IMG/VR virus record: IMGVR_UViG_3300025655_000302
Coordinates: 1 to 23,322 of that record
Direction: 5' to 3' (one strand)
From: a virus
DNA: 23,322 nt
A model generated the notes under the pieces. It searched no databases. It was not told the DNA's origin and worked only from the letters and a program-made list of their open reading frames with translations. The position numbers and the translations under genes were made by a program. Of this stretch, positions 8,677-21,199 are shown piece after piece (the first letter of the stretch is position 1; every line of letters starts with the position of its first letter).

Positions 8677-8677
<1 letters not shown>
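7322..8677 (-). CDS. Hypothetical virion structural protein next to the spike
   Basis: The 451-residue protein has no domain I can name. It is rich in beta-branched residues, Ser, Gly and Tyr, with few long helices, as in virion surface proteins. Features include an N-terminal segment with alternating hydrophobic residues (FKVYPN, HYTVYVSG) and a C-terminal block ending in YKVTMSSGREYTYNPTNGRW. A strong SD (GGAGG, 9 bases from the ATG) drives it, and its start overlaps the spike-gene stop as TAATG. It lies directly downstream of the gpV-like spike gene and upstream of the PAAR-like gene. This is a position where P2 has no equivalent, so it may be an extra part of the spike or baseplate periphery. 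Function is unknown. Confidence 0.8.
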
Positions 8678-11018
<2,341 letters not shown>

Positions 11019-11022
<4 letters not shown>

Positions 11023-13772
11023 TGAGGAGGACCTCCTTCAGAGGAGCCGCCAAACGGGTTAATCTGATTAAACAGGTCGCCAAACCCCGACTTGAGAGCT
11101 TCAAAAAGTACAGGGGTAGCTACATGAGTTTGCGCCTGTTCTCCGCCCCAAGGCGCACTCATCTCAAACGGAATTAATTTCAACTCGGTCTTAAAGCCGA
11201 CACCAGGGGAGATGGTGTGGGTGTACGATACAATTTTATATTTACCATCAAATGCGTGATTGCTTCCTATGCCGCGCATTCCTGTGCCGCGCATATCCGG
11301 CATGGACAAAGTAACTTCCCTTCCTATTTCGTCATACCTGCAAATTTCTGGTATCCCTAGTGTGGTTATTTTAGGCTCAAGAAAAACCTTTCCCCAATCA
11401 AGTACAGCCTTTTCTAGTTTCTTAGAATGAACAAATTTATTCTTCTTAAGTCCTCGAACCTCTGCAGTTTTTGGGGCACGAGAAAAAGAACTTGGGTTGG
11501 TTTTCTCTAGCATTGCGATTTCTGATGCCTTTAACCCAAAAACAGAACCTAACAACCACTTTGTCAAATTTTGGGGAGCCCAGCCAGGGTAGTTTCGCTC
11601 AATCCCTTTTACAGCATCTTCAAACTTAAAAAGTTTCTCATTTAAAACAGGCTCCATACGGTTAGCCTCCGCATCATCTACTGAACGTGTTTTATCGCTA
11701 TCGCCAACTCTTCCAGATGCAATCGCTCCAAGAGAATCAGCCTCTGCCTTGAAGGATGCTACGATACTTGACCATCCACCAACATCTAACTTTAGATTTA
11801 CACCTTGAGCAATCCAAGGAAATGATTTTATAGGTTTTAGGTGCTTACTTGGAGGAGCGGCTAAGGAAATGTCCAGTTCCCTTTCTTCACAAATATAAAC
11901 AACTTTGTCCGTTTTTGGAACTGGTCCAAAAACATTTTCCTTAGCTTTTCCATTCTCGTGTAAGAACTCAGCCGAGCTTATTCGGTAGGCTAAAGGATGA
12001 CCTTGTTCTCCTATTATTTCATTACCCCAGTTAATAAAATCGTTCAATGCATCCTCTACGGATTGACCGGGTTTTATACTCATAAGCAAGCCCGGTTTGT
12101 CTTTTTTGAATGAGAAATCCCCTTCCGGACCTCCACCCCAGTCCCCCCTTAGCTCTGTCTCACCTCCTCCTCCATCTTCAGACGTCATGAAAGCAATATC
12201 ATTGGCGGAGAACGGGTCAGACGTAAAAACAAACTCAGGAGTACTGTACGGCTCTGTCATAGCAGCAGTAGGCGGCGGAGGCATAAACTCTAGAGTGTTT
12301 AACGTGTTTATCTGTCCAACTCTTGCGTCAAGCGCCGTAGTATTTTGAATAACCCGAACAACAGAATCATTGGTCAGCCGAAAAAACCAAACCCCTGGTC
12401 CATACTGCTCAAAAGCAGCTCCGTCGTCCTGAGGTGGTACTTCAAACATAGAGTCGCTCCAGCCATCACCACCCCCTTCTCCAACTAAGGTTAGGTTTCG
12501 CTCAGCGTACCGAAGAGTCGGTGCGGAATGATTCCAACGTCCGGAGTCATCTCTATCCCAGGTTCTAAGGTCGGATGTTGATTCGTTAATAATAATTTGC
12601 TTAGTACCCCCTGCCCAGTACTCATACCGCCCGCTGTACTGGTCTTCCCAATTAGGAAGAGTTACGGTTTTAAAAAGTAAATCCCGTGCCTCTGTAATTT
12701 GTTGTAAATACTCACTTGGACCTTCAATCTCTGGGGAGAAAACGTTATCCGCTACCGCCGGAACATTGCGAGGCTCTTTTGAGGCTCCAAGGAGTTCTTC
12801 TACAAAATCTTCAGGAGTTGATATACTTCCTAATTGTTGAATTCCTGGGCTATCGCCTACTGACCCGGACTTATCCCTTTCCTCTCCTTTATCGCCTGAT
12901 TTTTCCCTATTAAAATTAGAGTAAAGTTGTCCTATCGGGTCATCAGGGTCGAATGAGCCGTCTACGGGAGGTACGTATTCGAAAAAAGGAGATTCCTCCA
13001 AGAAAGTGATGTTAGCCAATAACTTAGCATAATCATCTGACATATTGTCTATTTCGGCATCCGACCATGTTTGAGGTATATACTTTTTCCATTTCCCACT
13101 GGAGCCACCATTTTTCTGGTCCTTGTGCCCGCTTTTAATAGACCTTTTATACGCACCGATGGCAGCTTCAATATTAGCTTTAAGACCGTTATGGTTTAGG
13201 ACACAAGAAATTCCTTCCATGGAAAAGGCGGACTCTACAAGGGTTTCTATTGCGGCGGCAGTGTCTCGAAATGCAGTCAAGTCTACGCCTGTTGAAAAAC
13301 CTATTTTAGCTTCAGCGGAAGAACCTTTCCAGTTAGTTACTTTAGAATGTTCTGAGAGGTCGGAACCTCCAACAGCAAAATGCAAGTCCATCACAATCTC
13401 TTGACCTAGGGACAGGTTGTAGTTCGCACGCACTAAATGGCATTTTAATTTTTCAGACGTGCCTTGGTCGCCCTCCCAACCAAACCAAATAGTAAAATCT
13501 CCATCGTCGTTTAACAAATGGTCCATTATTTTCTTTTCAATTGCAATTGAAGGAATAACAATAGACATCTCTACCAGGAATTTGCCGTCTGTACCTCCAG
13601 AACCGCGTGACCCATAAGTGAACTTAAAAGATTTTAATGATTTTTTAAGCTCAAAAGGGTCCGGTGACATAGCAACAAAAGCGGTGCCTTTGTTAGTAGC
13701 CGCGAAACGACCGAAAGCACCCGGTCGCATCCAGTAAGGAGTCTTGAGGGTCTCGGAGATTTTATTGCTCAT
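11019..13772 (-). CDS. Baseplate hub protein (gpD/T4 gp27 type), enlarged
   Basis: The hub protein forms the ring at the end of the tail tube onto which the spike docks. The assignment rests on position, directly upstream of the gpV-like spike gene as in P2 (D next to V), and on the ends of the protein. The N-terminal 140 residues contain strands ending in YNLSLGQEIVMDLHFAVGG. The last 70 residues contain YKIVSYTHTISPGVGFKTELKLIPFE, very like the closing strands of gpD-family hubs ('Y.V..v.H.i.....f.T.l.l'). At 917 residues it is more than twice the size of T4 gp27 or P2 gpD (about 390). The extra length is a poorly conserved centre with charged, Gly/Ser-rich and Pro-rich parts (about 215-580). 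It has a good SD (GAGGT, 6 bases from the ATG) and an ATGA overlap with the upstream gene. Confidence 0.75.
11025..11037 (-). promoter_or_regulatory. SD of the spike gene inside a palindrome
   Basis: On the minus strand the SD AGGAGG is followed after one T by CCTCCT, and the ATG begins 3 bases later. The second half is complementary to the SD, so the SD could fold back on itself as a short hairpin (5-bp stem, 3-base loop). The same bases encode Gly-Gly-Pro-Pro at the end of the hub gene, so coding constraint may explain part of it. Confidence 0.5.
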
Positions 13773-14089
13773 GTCGAAACCTCATTAAATGGAACTCCCG
13801 GTATTTCCGGAACGAAAACTTTTCTGCCTGCTACAAGTTCAGTTTTTGCGTCATCAATTCTATTCGCGAGCATAATAGCCCACCATAAAGATTCGTCCCC
13901 ATAGACTTGTAAAGCTAATAAATCAGGACGACCGGTCATACCTTCAGGTATTATAGCAATTCTATATCTGTTGTTTTCCAGATTTTCCATAAAATCAGAA
14001 AAATCTAAAGAAGTAAACAAAGAAGACACCAACTTATCTCTATGGAAAGTTGGTACCGCATTAAAAATTTCAAAAGGGTTACTAGCCAT
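13769..14089 (-). CDS. Baseplate wedge protein, gp53/LysM (gpX-position) type
   Basis: I use the ATG at 14089 (protein beginning MASNPFEIFN, 106 residues). An AAAGGT SD lies 7 bases upstream, and the longer form would overlap the preceding gene without a usable SD. The core is RPDLLALQVYGDESLWWAIMLANRIDD followed by a GRKVFVPEIP-like end. The 'RPDLLA..VYGd..lWW.i...N.I.D......G..l.IP' pattern is that of T4 gp53-like wedge proteins and, more broadly, of LysM-type tail proteins such as P2 gpX. T4 gp53 joins wedges to the hub. Its place between the gpU-position gene and the hub gene agrees with P2 gpX. The stop overlaps the hub start as ATGA. Confidence 0.8.
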   Translation of the reverse strand: MASNPFEIFNAVPTFHRDKLVSSLFTSLDFSDFMENLENNRYRIAIIPEGMTGRPDLLALQVYGDESLWWAIMLANRIDDAKTELVAGRKVFVPEIPGVPFNEVST

Positions 14090-14100
14090 TATACTTACCT

Positions 14101-14580
14101 TTAATTTAAATAAGTAACTTCTCCAAGATTCCACCCGTGATATTCTTCAACAGACAACCGTATCATTATTGCACGGGAATCAGACTCATAAGCACCTAAC
14201 TCATAATCACTTGATATTTCATAACTAGTTACAATCAAGGGAGGGTATTTCAACTTACTCCCATAAATCTCAAAAGAACATACAGGTGGTCCTTCCCTAC
14301 CGTAAGTTCTGTCTAGAGGCTCTACAGAGTTACGAGCTACTTTAATTGCTTTCTCAACTTCCGAAGCTTGGTCGGCATGAGGAAGAGTAAACTTAAACTC
14401 AAAATCCGCAGCCCAAACGGAACCACCGACCCACAACCGGAGAGGTTCCCGTCTTCTGAAAATCTGTGTGGTTGCGTATCCGGCTTTTTTCTTTTCTTGT
14501 ATTTTAGGATTTTCAAAAATACTGAAACTACCAACGCCTTGCGCAGTAAACATTCCTATGCTTGATTTATTGTCACTCAT
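14101..14580 (-). CDS. Tail protein in gpU position
   Basis: I place the start at the second ATG (14580, MSDNKSS, 159 residues). It is 4 bases beyond the tape-measure stop, with a GGATGG SD-like run 8 bases upstream. The ATG at 14592 lies inside the tape-measure gene and has no spaced SD. The sequence is beta-rich: WVGGSVWAADFEFKFTLP near the middle, a helix with EVEKAIKVARN, then PPLIVTSYEISSDYELGAY and IMIRLSVEEYHGW near the end. That last half resembles the gpU/gpX class of tail-tube and baseplate connectors in its strand pattern, and the gene sits right after the tape measure as U follows T in P2. I do not see a diagnostic motif, so the family name is an inference from position and fold pattern. 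Confidence 0.7.
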   Translation of the reverse strand: MSDNKSSIGMFTAQGVGSFSIFENPKIQEKKKAGYATTQIFRRREPLRLWVGGSVWAADFEFKFTLPHADQASEVEKAIKVARNSVEPLDRTYGREGPPVCSFEIYGSKLKYPPLIVTSYEISSDYELGAYESDSRAIMIRLSVEEYHGWNLGEVTYLN

Positions 14581-14584
14581 AATA

Positions 14585-16582
14585 TTATCCATCCTGCAAT
14601 AGAACTCTCTGAATTTCGTTGTTTTCTTTGCTTATCTCATTTGTTTCTTGTATAGCTGTGAGAACTGAGGAGATTGCCGAGGTCAGAGTCTTAACATCTT
14701 CAGCTATAGGAGAATCTTTGACGGCGGTTATAAGGTCGTCCCATTGCCGTTGTAATGCCCGTTGTTTTAGAATTTCACTTTCTCGTTCAGTAGGAATCCT
14801 TTGTGTTCGTAAATTAGCGTCCAAGTAATTGCGGTCTTCTTCGCTAAAACCGAATGTAAGTCCTTTCACGAAGGTGTCGCGACTGCCCCTCCAAGCATCC
14901 ATCTCTTCCTCTTGCCTTGCGTTGCGTTCTCCTGCAATTGACCCGTGTTCGACCCAGCCCGACACTCTATCCAACCCTCTCCCACCAACTTCCATGACGG
15001 TGGTAAGCGGGTTATGCCACTCCCCCTGGACGCCTTTGCCTACCGTCTTTAAAAGACCTCCAGCAGTGCCGAGGACCATCTCCGCCGCGCCAAATGCCGT
15101 ATCCCAAGCAATTTCCGCAACATCGCCAACAACGCCAAGGGGGTTCCAGTCCTGCCACGCATGTTTTATTTTCAAAAATATAAACTCTGCGCCAATCGCA
15201 AAAGCGTCAATCATTGTCCAAAATATATTCCGCACTATCACTCCTCCGTATACTAGAGCGTTGTGCCCCCACTGACTGAGAACAGACTTAAATTGTTCCG
15301 TCCATAGTTCAAGATTTTCTTTAAAGGTATTCCAAGCTTTTTGTATACCACCTTGGGTGAAAAAGTCCCACGTCGCCACCACCGCTGTTTGGGCACCTTC
15401 CCAAATCTGAGATACCAATGAGCCTGCTTCTGCGATTTTCTCTTGCATCTGGGTTATGCCGCCGTTCGCTTCGAACTCGCTAAAAATTGCAATGGCTTTA
15501 TTAGTTAGACCTAAAAGCTCACCACTAATCCAATCAGCTATTGTTTGCGCCAAATCTACTACCTTACCACCAAGGTTGTTTGGACCCATTACGTTACCTA
15601 AAGCTTCCATTGAAGGGGTGAATATACTAAAAAATGCGTTCGCAAGTTTGTCCATTGTAGCAGACAGTTTTTTCTCCGCATCTTCCCTTACACGTAGGTC
15701 CCGCGTAGATGTCTGCATTAACTTGAGAAGTTCGCCAACTGAACCTAATTCGGCGGCAGCCTTATCCAAAATGGCAAAGTCCCCTGCTTGGAAGCTGAAC
15801 GTTTCTCCGAGTAACGCCCTAATCGTTGCGGAACCTTCCCCCTGGAACATACCCTCCTTGACGGATTTTAGAAGCGGATAAACAACTTTGGACATCAAAT
15901 CCTCCGCTCCCATACCTTCAAGGTTTTCCGGTAGTCCAAGCCTTGCTCTCAACGCCTTCTGTTCTGGGGTTTCGCCTATAAACTTAGAGACAACATTCAG
16001 TAACGGTTCAAGCTCAGCGCCTCCACCCTTCATCGATGCGGCGATGGTAGTCATGACAGCCCGCAGGTCATTGGCGAACTGCGGTCCGTAAATACCAGCA
16101 GCGTCTGTGAATGTTTGTTGGTGTTTATTTAACGCGGTAGCGAGAAGCTCCGGATTGGCTTCGGTTAAATCCGCTATATTCATCAATTGTGTTAAAGCCT
16201 TTGTTTGCAGCTCCTGAGACGCGTTCATGGTATTATTCATACCTCTCGTTAGTTGCAAGAAGGGACCCATATCTAAACCTAAGGTTTCTATCTGACTGAG
16301 AACGCCTAAAAACTGCTTATCCTGCGAACCAAGACCTTCTTGCATAAACTTGCCAAAGCTTTGTAAAACTTTGTCAAACCTGCCAGGAAGGTCAGCCACC
16401 CTTTCTAGAGCATCGTATACCTTACCTTGGTTGAGGGTATTAGACTTAACCATTGCGGTCTTCAACCCTTCGCTAGCTCCAATCTGCTGCGAAATGGCGC
16501 CCTTGATAGTCTCCAAAAGCGAGTTGCTTTTGTTCAAACTATCGGTTAACCTCTCTAAGGCTTCCTTCGTGTCTTGTGCCAT
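14585..16582 (-). CDS. Tail tape measure protein
   Basis: This 665-residue protein has the features of a tape measure. It has a helical, low-cysteine N-terminal half rich in Gln, Leu, Ala and Ser (about 1-330) and one strongly hydrophobic segment (about 440-472). Glycine/alanine-rich helices follow (about 480-515), and a polar helical tail ends in NEISKENNEIQRV. Tape measures run down the tube lumen and fix its length. At the usual 0.15 nm per residue, 665 residues would give a tail of about 100 nm, close to T4 (gp29, 590 residues). It is followed by the gpU-position and hub genes, as expected. The ATG lies 3 bases past the upstream stop and has no SD, so coupling is likely. A tape-measure role is well supported by composition and order, but no signature motif is diagnostic. 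Confidence 0.82.
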   Translation of the reverse strand: MAQDTKEALERLTDSLNKSNSLLETIKGAISQQIGASEGLKTAMVKSNTLNQGKVYDALERVADLPGRFDKVLQSFGKFMQEGLGSQDKQFLGVLSQIETLGLDMGPFLQLTRGMNNTMNASQELQTKALTQLMNIADLTEANPELLATALNKHQQTFTDAAGIYGPQFANDLRAVMTTIAASMKGGGAELEPLLNVVSKFIGETPEQKALRARLGLPENLEGMGAEDLMSKVVYPLLKSVKEGMFQGEGSATIRALLGETFSFQAGDFAILDKAAAELGSVGELLKLMQTSTRDLRVREDAEKKLSATMDKLANAFFSIFTPSMEALGNVMGPNNLGGKVVDLAQTIADWISGELLGLTNKAIAIFSEFEANGGITQMQEKIAEAGSLVSQIWEGAQTAVVATWDFFTQGGIQKAWNTFKENLELWTEQFKSVLSQWGHNALVYGGVIVRNIFWTMIDAFAIGAEFIFLKIKHAWQDWNPLGVVGDVAEIAWDTAFGAAEMVLGTAGGLLKTVGKGVQGEWHNPLTTVMEVGGRGLDRVSGWVEHGSIAGERNARQEEEMDAWRGSRDTFVKGLTFGFSEEDRNYLDANLRTQRIPTERESEILKQRALQRQWDDLITAVKDSPIAEDVKTLTSAISSVLTAIQETNEISKENNEIQRVLLQDG

Positions 16583-16585
16583 AAA

Positions 16586-17020
16586 TTAAAAAGGGTCTAC
16601 CCCTAAGTATTTAGTGGGGTCCACTACAGAAAGGTCTCTTAGCTTGCGTATGTCGTATTGGCGGACATAGTCTCCTACCTCAGATGCGCCGAGCCTCGTA
16701 AAAAATCTTTTAATCATCTGAGCGTGACGCCAAGGGATTGGACCTTTTTGAGAAAGTCTCTCCACTATCAAATCTCGAACACCTTCGTCCTCAACGTAAT
16801 TCAAATTAACAGCCAGCATGTACCTATTTCCATTCTTTGCAGTGTAAAAGGCATTTCCGGTTCTTTTACTTTGGAGCAACATCACTAAAGGGAATGGGTC
16901 GGTGGCAGTCCTGCTCCTATAAGTAAACGTGTAAAGGTTTGAGTTAAAAGAGGCTACGCGGGACACAGAACCTATGCGAAGCATAGCTTTTTTTAGTTTT
17001 TCGCTGTAATTAGATGCCAC
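16586..17020 (-). CDS. Hypothetical tail/baseplate-operon protein, first gene of the operon
   Basis: The 144-residue protein starts at a GTG (17020), chosen because a GGAG SD lies 4 bases upstream. The next Met is 12 residues in and has no SD. Its core reads LYTFTYRSRTATDPFPLVML, then FYTAKNGNRYMLAVNLNYV, with an Arg a few residues later, and it ends in YDIRKLRDLSVVDPTKYLG. The pattern of a Tyr-rich strand, 'fPLVm', then 'G..ylavNLnYv....R' resembles a group of small proteins encoded near tail genes of T4-like phages. I cannot assign it a T4 gene number. A candidate promoter element lies 14 bases upstream, which makes it the likely first gene of the long tail operon. Confidence 0.8.
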   Translation of the reverse strand: MASNYSEKLKKAMLRIGSVSRVASFNSNLYTFTYRSRTATDPFPLVMLLQSKRTGNAFYTAKNGNRYMLAVNLNYVEDEGVRDLIVERLSQKGPIPWRHAQMIKRFFTRLGASEVGDYVRQYDIRKLRDLSVVDPTKYLGVDPF

Positions 17021-18196: not shown

Positions 18197-19183
18197 AAAA
18201 TTCCATCCAATGTAATTAAAGACTATTTACAAGAGAAATTTGAAACTTTTCTTGTAAAAAACGACGAGTTCCTAGTGAATTCGTTGTTTGTGGAGGATTC
18301 TAAGTTTCATATGTCCATCAACATGACTACAGGTCTATGGCAGGATTTCAAGTCTAAAGAGACGGGAAACTTTCCGCAGCTAGTAGCTCACGTTGAGGGT
18401 ATTTCACACCAAGAAGCCCACAAGTATATAGGGAGAAAGCTATTTGATTCTCCGGAAGCCCTTTTCGACGTCTCGACCGTGCGCCAAACTGAAATCTACA
18501 CGGGGAAACCCAAAGTAGAGGAAGAGTTTGTTAACTTTAAAAAGCTAAGCCTTGCGCACGCTCTGCTATCTGATTCCTTGACAGAACGTTTAGCCGCGAA
18601 GGCTGTTATTTCCAGAAAATTGGATAGGTTTCCGTTCTACGTAGGAATGGAAGGCAAGTACGCTAACCGCCTAATCATCCCTTACAATTACAAAGGTCAA
18701 ATGATTTACTTCCAAGGTAGAAGTTTGTCCTCGTACGGAATGAAATACTTAAACCCAAGTAAGAACACCCACGGAGTAAAGTCCAGTGAGATTCTTTTCC
18801 CCTTTAACGAGTCCTTAGATTACGTAGTAGTGACCGAGGGACCTATGGATGCTATTAGCCTCCAGTTAAACGGACTAAACGCTACTTGTATCCAAGGAAG
18901 TATGATGTCGTACACGCAAGCAAGAGAACTCGCCAAAAAGAAAGTTATACTCAGCTTTGATAACGACGACGCAGGAAAGGAAGGAGAGGAGAAAGCAAGA
19001 AACCTCCTACTACGCCTTAACACCTCAAACATCTACACCGTACGCCCTCCAGAGCAGTACAAAGATTGGAACGCGTTCCACATAGACCTAAACGACTCTA
19101 AGAGCCTATTTAAGTACGTTCAGTCGAATATCCGAAAAATGGATTTCACGTACTTTGTGTCACAAGGTCTATCTGCAGATTAG
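18194..19183 (+). CDS. DNA primase-like protein with Toprim domain
   Basis: The 329-residue protein carries a Toprim catalytic core: VVVTEGPMDA (E215 and D219) and ILSFDNDDAGKEG (D256 and D258, the DxD pair). In DnaG-type primases these residues bind metal for RNA primer synthesis. The N-terminal 80 residues contain 'SINMTTGLWQDFKSKETGNF', which looks like the zinc-finger fold of phage primases. The zinc-binding Cys/His set is absent, so the domain may be degenerate or metal-free. Between them, residues about 140-200 contain RLIIPYN and YFQGRS, typical of the region just before Toprim. There is no attached helicase domain, so a separate replicative helicase would be needed. The start is fixed by the back-to-back arrangement and by the conserved N-terminus. 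No SD is visible. The last 15 bases overlap the opposite-strand gene. Confidence 0.88.
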   Translation: MKIPSNVIKDYLQEKFETFLVKNDEFLVNSLFVEDSKFHMSINMTTGLWQDFKSKETGNFPQLVAHVEGISHQEAHKYIGRKLFDSPEALFDVSTVRQTEIYTGKPKVEEEFVNFKKLSLAHALLSDSLTERLAAKAVISRKLDRFPFYVGMEGKYANRLIIPYNYKGQMIYFQGRSLSSYGMKYLNPSKNTHGVKSSEILFPFNESLDYVVVTEGPMDAISLQLNGLNATCIQGSMMSYTQARELAKKKVILSFDNDDAGKEGEEKARNLLLRLNTSNIYTVRPPEQYKDWNAFHIDLNDSKSLFKYVQSNIRKMDFTYFVSQGLSAD

Positions 19184-20146
19184 ATTGAACTTATCGCTAT
19201 AGATGGTTTCGTCCATCAAAGTATAGCGAACTTGAATGTCGTACCTGCCTACACTAGAGAATGTGTAGCTGTACTTCATAGTGTCATCAGACGTGACATT
19301 ATCAACATCAGCCCAAGCTTGCATGACGTCCCAGGCTCCGTCGTTCTCGTCGTACTTTCTAATTTGAATTGCAGCGGACTGGATTACAGATTCGTTAAAA
19401 ATAGCCCTCACATCCTTCGGAATGGATGTATCGTTTAGGGAGATATCCGTAGCGATAGAAAGGACGACTGTGCTACTAACGTTTACGTACTTCTGGAGTA
19501 ACTTATTTTTGGAGGTTACTGACAGAGGCTCGGTAAGACCTAGAATAGTGTCATTGTATAGGTCAAAAGTATTAATATAGACTTTTGGAGCAGAGCCTTC
19601 ATTATCTACAATTGTCCAAAAATCATAGTACTTACCTACCGAGGATGCGGTATTCGCTACCCCCACAGCAGAAGTAGCTAAATGACCACCGATATCCGTA
19701 AGTGCGGTAGTGGAGTAACCATCGGGCTGGAGAACTACAGCGTAATGCCCCGTATCTAGCCTAAAAATACCACTAGCCGAAGAAACGTCACCGCCGTAGG
19801 TGGAGGCATCAAAATAAGAAGTGGTAGGGTTTACGACCCTGGCGAACGTCGCCCCTGCGCCACTAGAGTTTATAAAACGGGCGTGGACACCCGATGCGAC
19901 TCCGGAAGCCACCAAACCATACTCAGTGCTAGACGAGTTGTAGTCTAGGTACTTTTCGGGGTCCCCGTTAGAAATAGTCTCCAAATAGGTGCTAGACGCA
20001 ATCTGGTCTTTAATTACAACTACAGAGCATACTTGGTACGGGTCAGCATAAGCGCCGCTTTTAATGTAAAATAACTCCAAGGCAGTCTTCCCCAGTACAG
20101 TGGGGCGATTCTTCCTCGGAACGACGGTAATGCTGTTAATCTTCAT
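19169..20146 (-). CDS. Hypothetical beta-rich virion structural protein
   Basis: I do not recognise a family for this 325-residue protein. It is rich in Ser, Thr, Val, Tyr and Asp and has little predicted helix. The last 60 residues (about 265-325) look like an Ig-like beta-sandwich: IQIRKYDENDGAWDVMQAW, then YSYTFSSVGRYDIQVRYTL, then a short closing strand FNLIC. It follows the gp26-like chaperone/frameshift pair after 13 bases and continues the tail gene strand, so a tail or virion part is likely. The start ATG has only a weak AGAG upstream. An AT-rich element similar to the tail-operon promoter lies 8 bases before the start. The 3' end overlaps the primase gene by 15 bases in a convergent arrangement. 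Confidence 0.8.
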   Translation of the reverse strand: MKINSITVVPRKNRPTVLGKTALELFYIKSGAYADPYQVCSVVVIKDQIASSTYLETISNGDPEKYLDYNSSSTEYGLVASGVASGVHARFINSSGAGATFARVVNPTTSYFDASTYGGDVSSASGIFRLDTGHYAVVLQPDGYSTTALTDIGGHLATSAVGVANTASSVGKYYDFWTIVDNEGSAPKVYINTFDLYNDTILGLTEPLSVTSKNKLLQKYVNVSSTVVLSIATDISLNDTSIPKDVRAIFNESVIQSAAIQIRKYDENDGAWDVMQAWADVDNVTSDDTMKYSYTFSSVGRYDIQVRYTLMDETIYSDKFNLICR

Positions 20147-20154
20147 GGATGTGT

Positions 20155-20167
20155 CTCTATTATCTAC
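20155..20167 (-). promoter_or_regulatory. Second copy of the candidate promoter element (GTAGATAATAGAG)
   Basis: On the minus strand GTAGATAATAGAG matches the element upstream of the tail operon at 12 of 13 bases and lies 8 bases before the ATG at 20146. It overlaps the end of the frameshift extension, where TAA and TAG are tandem stops, so part of the match could be coincidence. Confidence 0.35.
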
Positions 20168-20369
20168 CCCTGAAGTTTTTATTTTGAGATTCTTTTATAG
20201 CCTGAGCCTCAGCCTCTTGGTCTTTAACGAAAAGCTCTAAAAACTGCCTCCTGTCTTCTGAGGTCATATTTTGTACAGAGGCAAAATCAAAACGGCAGCG
20301 TCTTACCAACATATACCCCTCTCTGTCTAAAATATCTCTACCACATTTAACCTCTAGCTCGTAAAGAAA
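20160..20369 (-). CDS. Frameshift-only C-terminal extension of the gp26-like protein
   Basis: This reading frame lies in the -1 frame relative to the gp26-like gene and overlaps its end. Entering by a -1 slip at AAATTTTTTC, it adds 69 residues from Phe 278 of a fusion of about 346 residues. The extension contains a YELEVKCG start, a basic LVRRCRFDF segment and a helix FASVQNMTSEDRRQFLEL, followed by an acidic/Ala-rich tail. The 'NMTSEDRRQF' part resembles the C-terminal portions of frameshifted tail assembly chaperones, where a Met-Thr and an Arg pair sit before a charged helix. A stand-alone reading is possible: an in-frame ATG at 20312, with a GAGGGG SD 3 bases upstream, would give 50 residues. 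The two readings are not exclusive. Confidence 0.7.
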   Translation of the reverse strand, partial: FLYELEVKCGRDILDREGYMLVRRCRFDFASVQNMTSEDRRQFLELFVKDQEAEAQAIKESQNKNFRGR

Positions 20370-21199
20370 AAATTTGCGTTTACTCCCACAGTGTCTATAT
20401 TCTTGGCGGCGCAAGAATCGCAAATCCACTCGGTTTCAGGGTCCATACCGTAGCTAGGGGTGAAGATTGCCTCCCTCAGATTGGCAACATCTCTAACAGT
20501 AGTACCTTCCACAAAAAGAGAAATAATGGTACTGTCGGTCTGCCCTTCCACATCTAAAATGTACTGAGGCAAAGACTCAACCAACTGTTTCACGGACTGC
20601 ATAGAAGACTCATCACTAACCCTCAAGACCCTAACCCTCGCGGTTTTCTTTGAATCTGGAAGGAAAACAGTAGTTTCCGATTCCATATCGCCTTCCAAGT
20701 AATCAACTTTCATGCTAGAAATGTCATAATTCAGGATGGAATCTTTCTTACAGGAATCGCAAACCACCGGACACTTATACTCAGAACCGTAAGAAAGTTG
20801 GCGAATCTTGAACAGACAAAAAAGCTTATCAGGAATAGTAAGGTCTTCGTACTTCGGACCTTTAATACAGGTGCTTAGTACGTGATTTAAGGCGTCAAGG
20901 GCTCTGTCACCCTGTCCGGCTTGTTGGATTTTTTTCTCGTCCGAATACTTAAGAGGTCTAACCTCGACCGTTTGCTTATCATACCCAGAGTACATCTTAC
21001 CGAGAGAAGGAAGGTTAAACTCCACAAAAGAGTCTACATTCTTCACGTTCTCCAAAAGAGAAGCGACTGCATCCTTTATCTCTGACACTTCAGGTACTGT
21101 AGCATCAGCTGGAGTAGGTAAGGGTTTCTCCCCTTTCTCTTGACCTTCAAACGATTTCGCGAGGTCTACAATTGATTTTTCTTTATCTTTACCGAACAT
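20354..21199 (-). CDS. gp26-like baseplate hub / tail assembly chaperone, zero-frame product
   Basis: The 281-residue protein matches the T4 gp26-type baseplate family (T4_baseplate). A disordered Pro/Glu/Lys-rich start (1-55) is followed by FNLPSLGKMYSGYDKQTVEV (about 61-80). Next come VRPLKYSDEKKI, a helix with LDALNHVLSTCIKG, and KLFCLFKIRQLSYGSEYKCPVVCDSC. Two cysteine pairs, C147-x2-C150 and C260-x2-C263, with C143 nearby, suggest a zinc ribbon. In T4 gp26 is a hub component; related genes next to tape measures in other phages act as tail assembly chaperones. The gene ends at a -1 slippery sequence just before its stop, as in chaperone pairs. The ATG at 21199 has no SD. A divergent helicase gene starts 53 bases away, matching the uvsW-25-26 neighbourhood of T4. 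Confidence 0.82.
   Translation of the reverse strand: MFGKDKEKSIVDLAKSFEGQEKGEKPLPTPADATVPEVSEIKDAVASLLENVKNVDSFVEFNLPSLGKMYSGYDKQTVEVRPLKYSDEKKIQQAGQGDRALDALNHVLSTCIKGPKYEDLTIPDKLFCLFKIRQLSYGSEYKCPVVCDSCKKDSILNYDISSMKVDYLEGDMESETTVFLPDSKKTARVRVLRVSDESSMQSVKQLVESLPQYILDVEGQTDSTIISLFVEGTTVRDVANLREAIFTPSYGMDPETEWICDSCAAKNIDTVGVNANFFFTS
20366..20375 (-). promoter_or_regulatory. Programmed -1 ribosomal frameshift site AAATTTTTTC
   Basis: Two overlapping slippery heptamers lie in phase with the gp26-like frame: A AAT TTT (20375-20369) and T TTT TTC (20372-20366). Both are canonical X XXY YYZ sequences for a -1 slip, and the zero-frame stop lies only four codons past the first. Seven bases upstream is a GGGAG sequence that can pair with 16S rRNA, an arrangement like the dnaX frameshift enhancer. 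I see no clear downstream hairpin or pseudoknot. Confidence 0.8.

Follow-up and report, generated by a model that had tools for sequence, protein, structure and literature searches.

The gene for a gp26-like protein in the window, the whole stretch of 23,322 nucleotides of an IMG/VR virus record that was analysed here, very probably codes for a tail assembly chaperone of the T4 gp26/gp51 type that comes in two forms, the long one being the predicted product of a -1 ribosomal slip. Read from the sequence, the slip site is present, the -1 frame behind it is open and selected, and the extension that it encodes is similar to the gp51 C-terminal family; slippage itself, its rate and the role of the products in assembly we infer. 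Most ribosomes would stop at 20354 and produce the gp26-like short form of 281 residues (TAC-N). A minority would slip by -1 on T TTT TTC (or on the overlapping A AAT TTT) to produce a 346-residue long form (TAC-NC) with a helical, gp51-C-like end. If lambda G/GT is taken as the model, the tape measure protein would be coated by the short form in many copies and would receive tail tube subunits from a small number of long forms. In the original prediction the gp26-type protein had the part of the G-like partner and the -1 ORF that of the T-like domain, an assignment supported by slip-site conservation, purifying selection, profile similarity and the T4 gp26/gp51 arrangement.

Table 1. Features of the predicted two-form chaperone locus and its presumed client, in window coordinates.
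Feature	Position	Strand	Basis or remark
gp26-like gene, short form (TAC-N / G-like), 281 aa	20354..21199	(-)	PF12322 1.1e-12; phrog_150 6e-16; AlphaFold model matches
Candidate Shine-Dalgarno-like stimulator, GGGAG	20383..20387	(-)	10 nt before TTTTTTC, 7 nt before AAATTTT
Slippery heptamer A AAT TTT	20375-20369	(-)	sequence; present too in L102, L104, L004 and L005
Slippery heptamer T TTT TTC	20372-20366	(-)	80/80 cyanophage-type loci; FF columns invariant between clades
-1 extension, predicted T-like / gp51-C-like domain of the long form	20160..20372	(-)	70 aa including the shared FF, plus stop; kept in relatives
Presumed tape measure (665 aa), presumed chaperone client, not adjacent	14585..16582	(-)	gene order as in SP-15

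The match of the gp26-like protein to PF12322 exceeds the curated cut-off of that family, and its phrog_150 match carries the annotation 'baseplate hub'. An AlphaFold model of the gp26-like part resembles gp26-type viral models in a fold search, SP-15 being the best (2e-14). A fold search of the model against the PDB gave no solved-structure match, and a profile search of PDB sequences with the protein yielded nothing beyond weak matches to prefoldin (0.06).

On the minus strand the 3' end of the gene reads GTG GGA GTA AAC GCA AAT TTT TTC TTT ACG AGC TAG. Two overlapping in-phase -1 heptamers had been proposed near the stop, and the sequence bears this out: A AAT TTT and T TTT TTC both lie in phase as X XXY YYZ ahead of the stop, with an overlapping, open -1 frame. 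Three sense codons separate T TTT TTC from the 0-frame stop (20356-20354), and a slip on either heptamer is predicted to give one identical peptide, ..VNANFF/LYELEVKC.., across the slip. T TTT TTC, the more conserved of the two, is probably the main slip site. Past the heptamer the -1 frame was correctly described as open, its length being 68 codons and not 69, with a stop at 20162-20160; the computed length of the fusion, 346 aa, agrees with the figure of about 346 given beforehand. In-phase heptamers occur 45 times per 7040 codon positions in the window's genes, of which only gp26 has one that opens onto more than 18 codons of -1 frame other than by running into an annotated downstream gene.

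The GGGAG run lies at the predicted distance of 7 bases, counted from AAATTTT. Its GGGA is retained in the relatives L102 and L104 and absent from L004 and L005. Among 80 cyanophage-type loci, 70 have an SD-like motif ahead of the slip site (at control positions, 3-41 of 80). The 60 nt on the 3' side fold with a mean z of about -2.1, more strongly than control windows elsewhere in the locus, and most cyanophages show such structure; in these phages the SD-like element and the downstream stem-loop both peak exactly at the slip site. Downstream RNA folding is likewise seen in L102 (z -2.8) and L104 (z -3.8), unlike the window, where no significant downstream structure was found (z +0.8; second estimate +0.2).

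The junction is conserved among close relatives. Two IMG/VR contigs with a 100% identical protein (L002 and L003) have the same junction as the window, and in four relatives at 60-70% identity (L102, L104, L004 and L005) the same AAATTTTTTC, both heptamers and the -1 ORF are kept; the sequence of a further relative, L103, ends inside the junction. The extensions share the pattern FFL(Y/H)ELE..LD.E....LV....F...SV..M....R....L.L, whose conserved residues start right at the slip site. Between L102 and L104, the part of the extension beyond the 0-frame stop shows 11 synonymous against 4 non-synonymous substitutions (dN/dS 0.08; P 3e-5 against a neutral proportion of 0.22), and wider pairs of extensions give dN/dS values of 0.33-0.55 with synonymous sites near saturation. 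As judged from these substitutions, the -1 extension is under purifying selection; both the site and the -1 protein are evolutionarily conserved.

More distant homologues of gp26 were found by tblastn in SP-15, LIS04, GXN1, two huge uncultured phages and one cyanophage, and a search from the gp26 of that cyanophage recovered about 800 T4-like phage records. A -1 ORF follows a T TTT TTC at the end of gp26 in S-PM2, Sf-CH1b, BUCT-ZZ01, KVP40, Marzo, ORM_20 and Atu_ph07, and a T TTT TTT in that place in HTVC008M. This ORF is annotated as gp51 in S-PM2 and as 'base plate hub assembly catalyst' in HTVC008M; elsewhere it is hypothetical or carries no annotation. Scanning IMG/VR with an alignment of cyanophage gp26 yielded the 80 cyanophage-type loci, all of which have T TTT TTC at the same alignment column and a -1 ORF behind it; in L055 the -1 frame closes 38 nt past the 0-frame stop, early in the domain. 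Other FF pairs in the same genes are encoded as TTT TTC in 4 of 71 cases. Aligned jointly, the window clade and the cyanophages show no variation between them in the two Phe columns, so their slip sites are homologous. The check proposed at the outset, an alignment of homologues, thus finds the slip site and -1 ORF conserved both in L102, L104, L004 and L005 and across the 80 cyanophage-type loci. In Salmonella phage GG32 (L018 4720-4902; Ackermannviridae) the gp26 extension lies in the -1 frame with no canonical heptamer (GAG ATT TTC ATT TAA).

The extension can be linked to T4 gp51 in steps. By hhalign, the window-clade extension matches the cyanophage extension with 84% probability and a score of 31; the maximum among shuffles was 20, and 0 of 200 column shuffles were as good. 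The cyanophage extension matches the C-terminus of T4 gp51 in profile-profile comparison at 87-89%, and that of S-PM2 matches phrog_634, 'baseplate hub assembly catalyst', at 8e-29 (0.09 for the L102 extension). Direct profile comparison of the window extension with T4 gp51 is weak (3%), so the link between them runs via the cyanophages. A -1 ORF, a conserved slip site and similarity to cyanophage gp51 ORFs occur together in the window, as would be expected of a long form. In the AlphaFold model of the extension (pLDDT 76), three short helices precede a long one; a fold search with this model gave no significant match, P-HM1 Gp51 ranking third (0.24).

On sequence grounds, T4 gp51 is itself a gp26 paralogue with the extension fused on, because the whole protein matches PF12322 (4e-52) and phrog_150 (3e-84, profile positions 13-280 of 282), gp26 and gp51 cross-match by BLAST in two T4-type loci (L112 and L114), and its C-terminal part matches phrog_634. 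T4 gp26 covers phrog_150 positions 14-235 only. T4 makes both forms from two divergent genes, where its relatives have one gene and a predicted slip. A homologue that keeps the protein and lacks the slip site had been named as a case that would count against frameshifting; T4 is such a case, and is explained by gp51 encoding the fused long form. In T4 and its relatives gp26 and gp51 are divergent neighbours (L012 5803-7229; L106-L115). The gp51 frame of L114 (2974754850) is broken after 120 residues, possibly through sequence error or decay.

It is also conceivable that the downstream ORF encodes a separate small gp51-like protein, translated by coupling or from an internal start, with no fusion and a heptamer that is incidental. 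In its favour, stop and start overlap in KVP40 and Marzo (TAATG/TGATG), where small genes are annotated; the fourth codon past the slip site is ATG in 52 of 79 cyanophage-type loci; and an internal ATG in the window would give a product of about 50 residues. Yet 10 of the same 79 loci have no start in the first 14 codons. Within the window clade the earliest starts fall at differing places; L104 has none before codon 33, and the only ATG common to all five members is at that codon, inside the conserved domain. Start codons whose positions are for the most part not conserved speak against the ORF being a small gene of its own. Such a gene would also leave the T TTT TTC of 80/80 loci unexplained, and it sits poorly with residue conservation that begins at the slip site and with the fusion of the domain to a gp26 paralogue in T4. 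We regard it as very unlikely.

A combination, in which the frameshift fusion is accompanied by a free small protein from an internal start, is unlikely: several relatives have annotated internal starts and T4 has the annotated internal-start product 26', but across the window clade such starts are not kept. Given that homopolymers are error-prone and in-phase heptamers are not rare at the frequency given above, a homopolymer error might have split a fused gene, or the -1 ORF might be meaningless. The same frame relation, however, recurs in records at 60-100% identity, in 80/80 cyanophage-type contigs and in isolate genomes, a conservation that rules out sequencing or assembly error, and the probability of chance or artefact is vanishingly small.

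Other lineages may reach the same pair of chaperone forms by other routes. Homologous extensions lie in the +1 (or -2) frame in SP-15 (L006 6724-6919), LIS04 (L007 5736-5949) and GXN1 (L008 5724-5988), and also in L009 and L020; they overlap the end of gp26 and are mostly unannotated, SP15_046 being a fragment only. SP-15, LIS04 and GXN1 have a common CC CGA TT(C/T) ahead of the stop. By name, the phages with the +1 (or -2) arrangement are SP-15, LIS04, GXN1, LR756508 and Mel-JY01. There is an even chance that a single chaperone family has kept both forms through several decoding switches, namely a -1 slip on T TTT TTC (the window clade, cyanophages, KVP40 and others), a +1/-2 arrangement (SP-15/LIS04/GXN1, with two more lineages probable) and, in T4, duplication of the gene. 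If this is true and the +1/-2 arrangement is unreported, it would represent a new decoding switch at a homologous junction.

The surroundings of the gene differ from the canonical ones. In SP-15 gp26 lies between the tail tube and tape measure genes; in the window, 3.6 kb holding a 325-aa gene, a primase, a nuclease and others separate the gp26-like gene from the presumed tape measure, which has no significant family match. The separation from the tape measure noted earlier is real here; it is less unusual than was supposed, in that BUCT-ZZ01, GG32 and Atu_ph07 also have no adjacent tape measure. A 144-aa gene (16586-17020) directly upstream of the presumed tape measure was considered as the true chaperone and rejected: its CCCTTTT gives only 14 codons beyond the stop, the C-terminus of its L102 homologue differs, and its best hit to a named family, a DNA end protector, is weak. 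The 325-aa protein (19169-20146), directly after the extension, is kept in L102 and matches no family significantly; it may be a neck or tail protein. In a 163-aa tail gene (14101-14592) a terminal in-phase TTTAAAT opens -1 into the overlapping downstream gp53-like gene (13769-14134), possibly by chance. A 781-aa spike-like protein (8677-11022) contains long low-complexity stretches rich in proline, glycine and acidic residues, including a run of about 15 glycines.

The original prediction tied the T4 gp26 family to tail assembly chaperones, a connection that had already been published: Vladimirov, Gautam and Davidson (2022), as cited in PMC10885494 and PMC12846349, identified the T4-like tail assembly chaperone genes. 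The phage Adele paper (PMC12846349) credits that study with slippery poly-T stretches in the TAC-N genes of T4-like phages, and according to the PRFect paper it describes some T4-like phages as having a short gene alongside a fused long one. Since, going by these citing papers, both the chaperone identity and the frameshift idea are published, the window locus is to be seen as a divergent further member. In the literature consulted we found no statement of the homologous position of the site in the window lineage, of a dnaX-like pair of stimulators in cyanophages or of the +1 (or -2) arrangement, all of which the 2022 paper may contain. The present analysis adds a divergent, uncultured lineage of myophages to those with the frameshifted T4-type chaperone and shows by homology that its slip site occupies the protein position seen in cyanophages. 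A further suggestion is that one frameshifted gene should be annotated in many cases where gp26 is followed by a 'gp51' or unannotated ORF.

Among known systems, T4-like gp26/gp51 has the same two products, a gp26-type short form and a long form made up of a gp26-type part and the gp51 C-terminal domain; T4 has separate genes and no slip, whereas the window has one gene with a predicted -1 slip. The window lineage is divergent from the T4 type (PF12322 at 1e-12), and its gene is not beside the tape measure. G-T frameshifting has been described as conserved among long-tailed phages 'except T4' (Atkins et al. 2016, PMC5009743), and the comparison supports the view that this long-cited exception carries as two genes the two forms for which its relatives slip. 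The gp26 genes of cyanophages and KVP40, at about 20-25% identity to the window protein, have T TTT TTC at the homologous FF codons and a -1 ORF of the same domain family; cyanophages differ from the window in their downstream stem-loop and in the long presumed tape measure gene that usually follows directly. In Vandenendeviridae and Andersonviridae (phage Adele, PMC12846349), which are other phage families than the window's, a conserved poly-T -1 site likewise lies at the end of TAC-N, with a -1 frame open in all genomes and a downstream ORF annotated as a separate hypothetical gene. The dnaX-type -1 cassette shares the SD-like element about 10 nt before the heptamer and, with cyanophages, the 3' stem-loop; its heptamer is a different one, and the window is without significant 3' structure. 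Family, profile and solved-structure searches, in which very distant homology could be missed, revealed none to lambda G/GT or P2 E/E'. These systems nevertheless share with the window the arrangement of a short protein and a rare -1 fusion (predicted in the window) with a small C-terminal domain and, probably, the function, and differ from it in that the window gene is not next to the tape measure. The division of labour in lambda is established knowledge: gpG covers the tape measure protein, and gpGT, the minor product, uses its T part to deliver the tail tube protein (PMC5009743).
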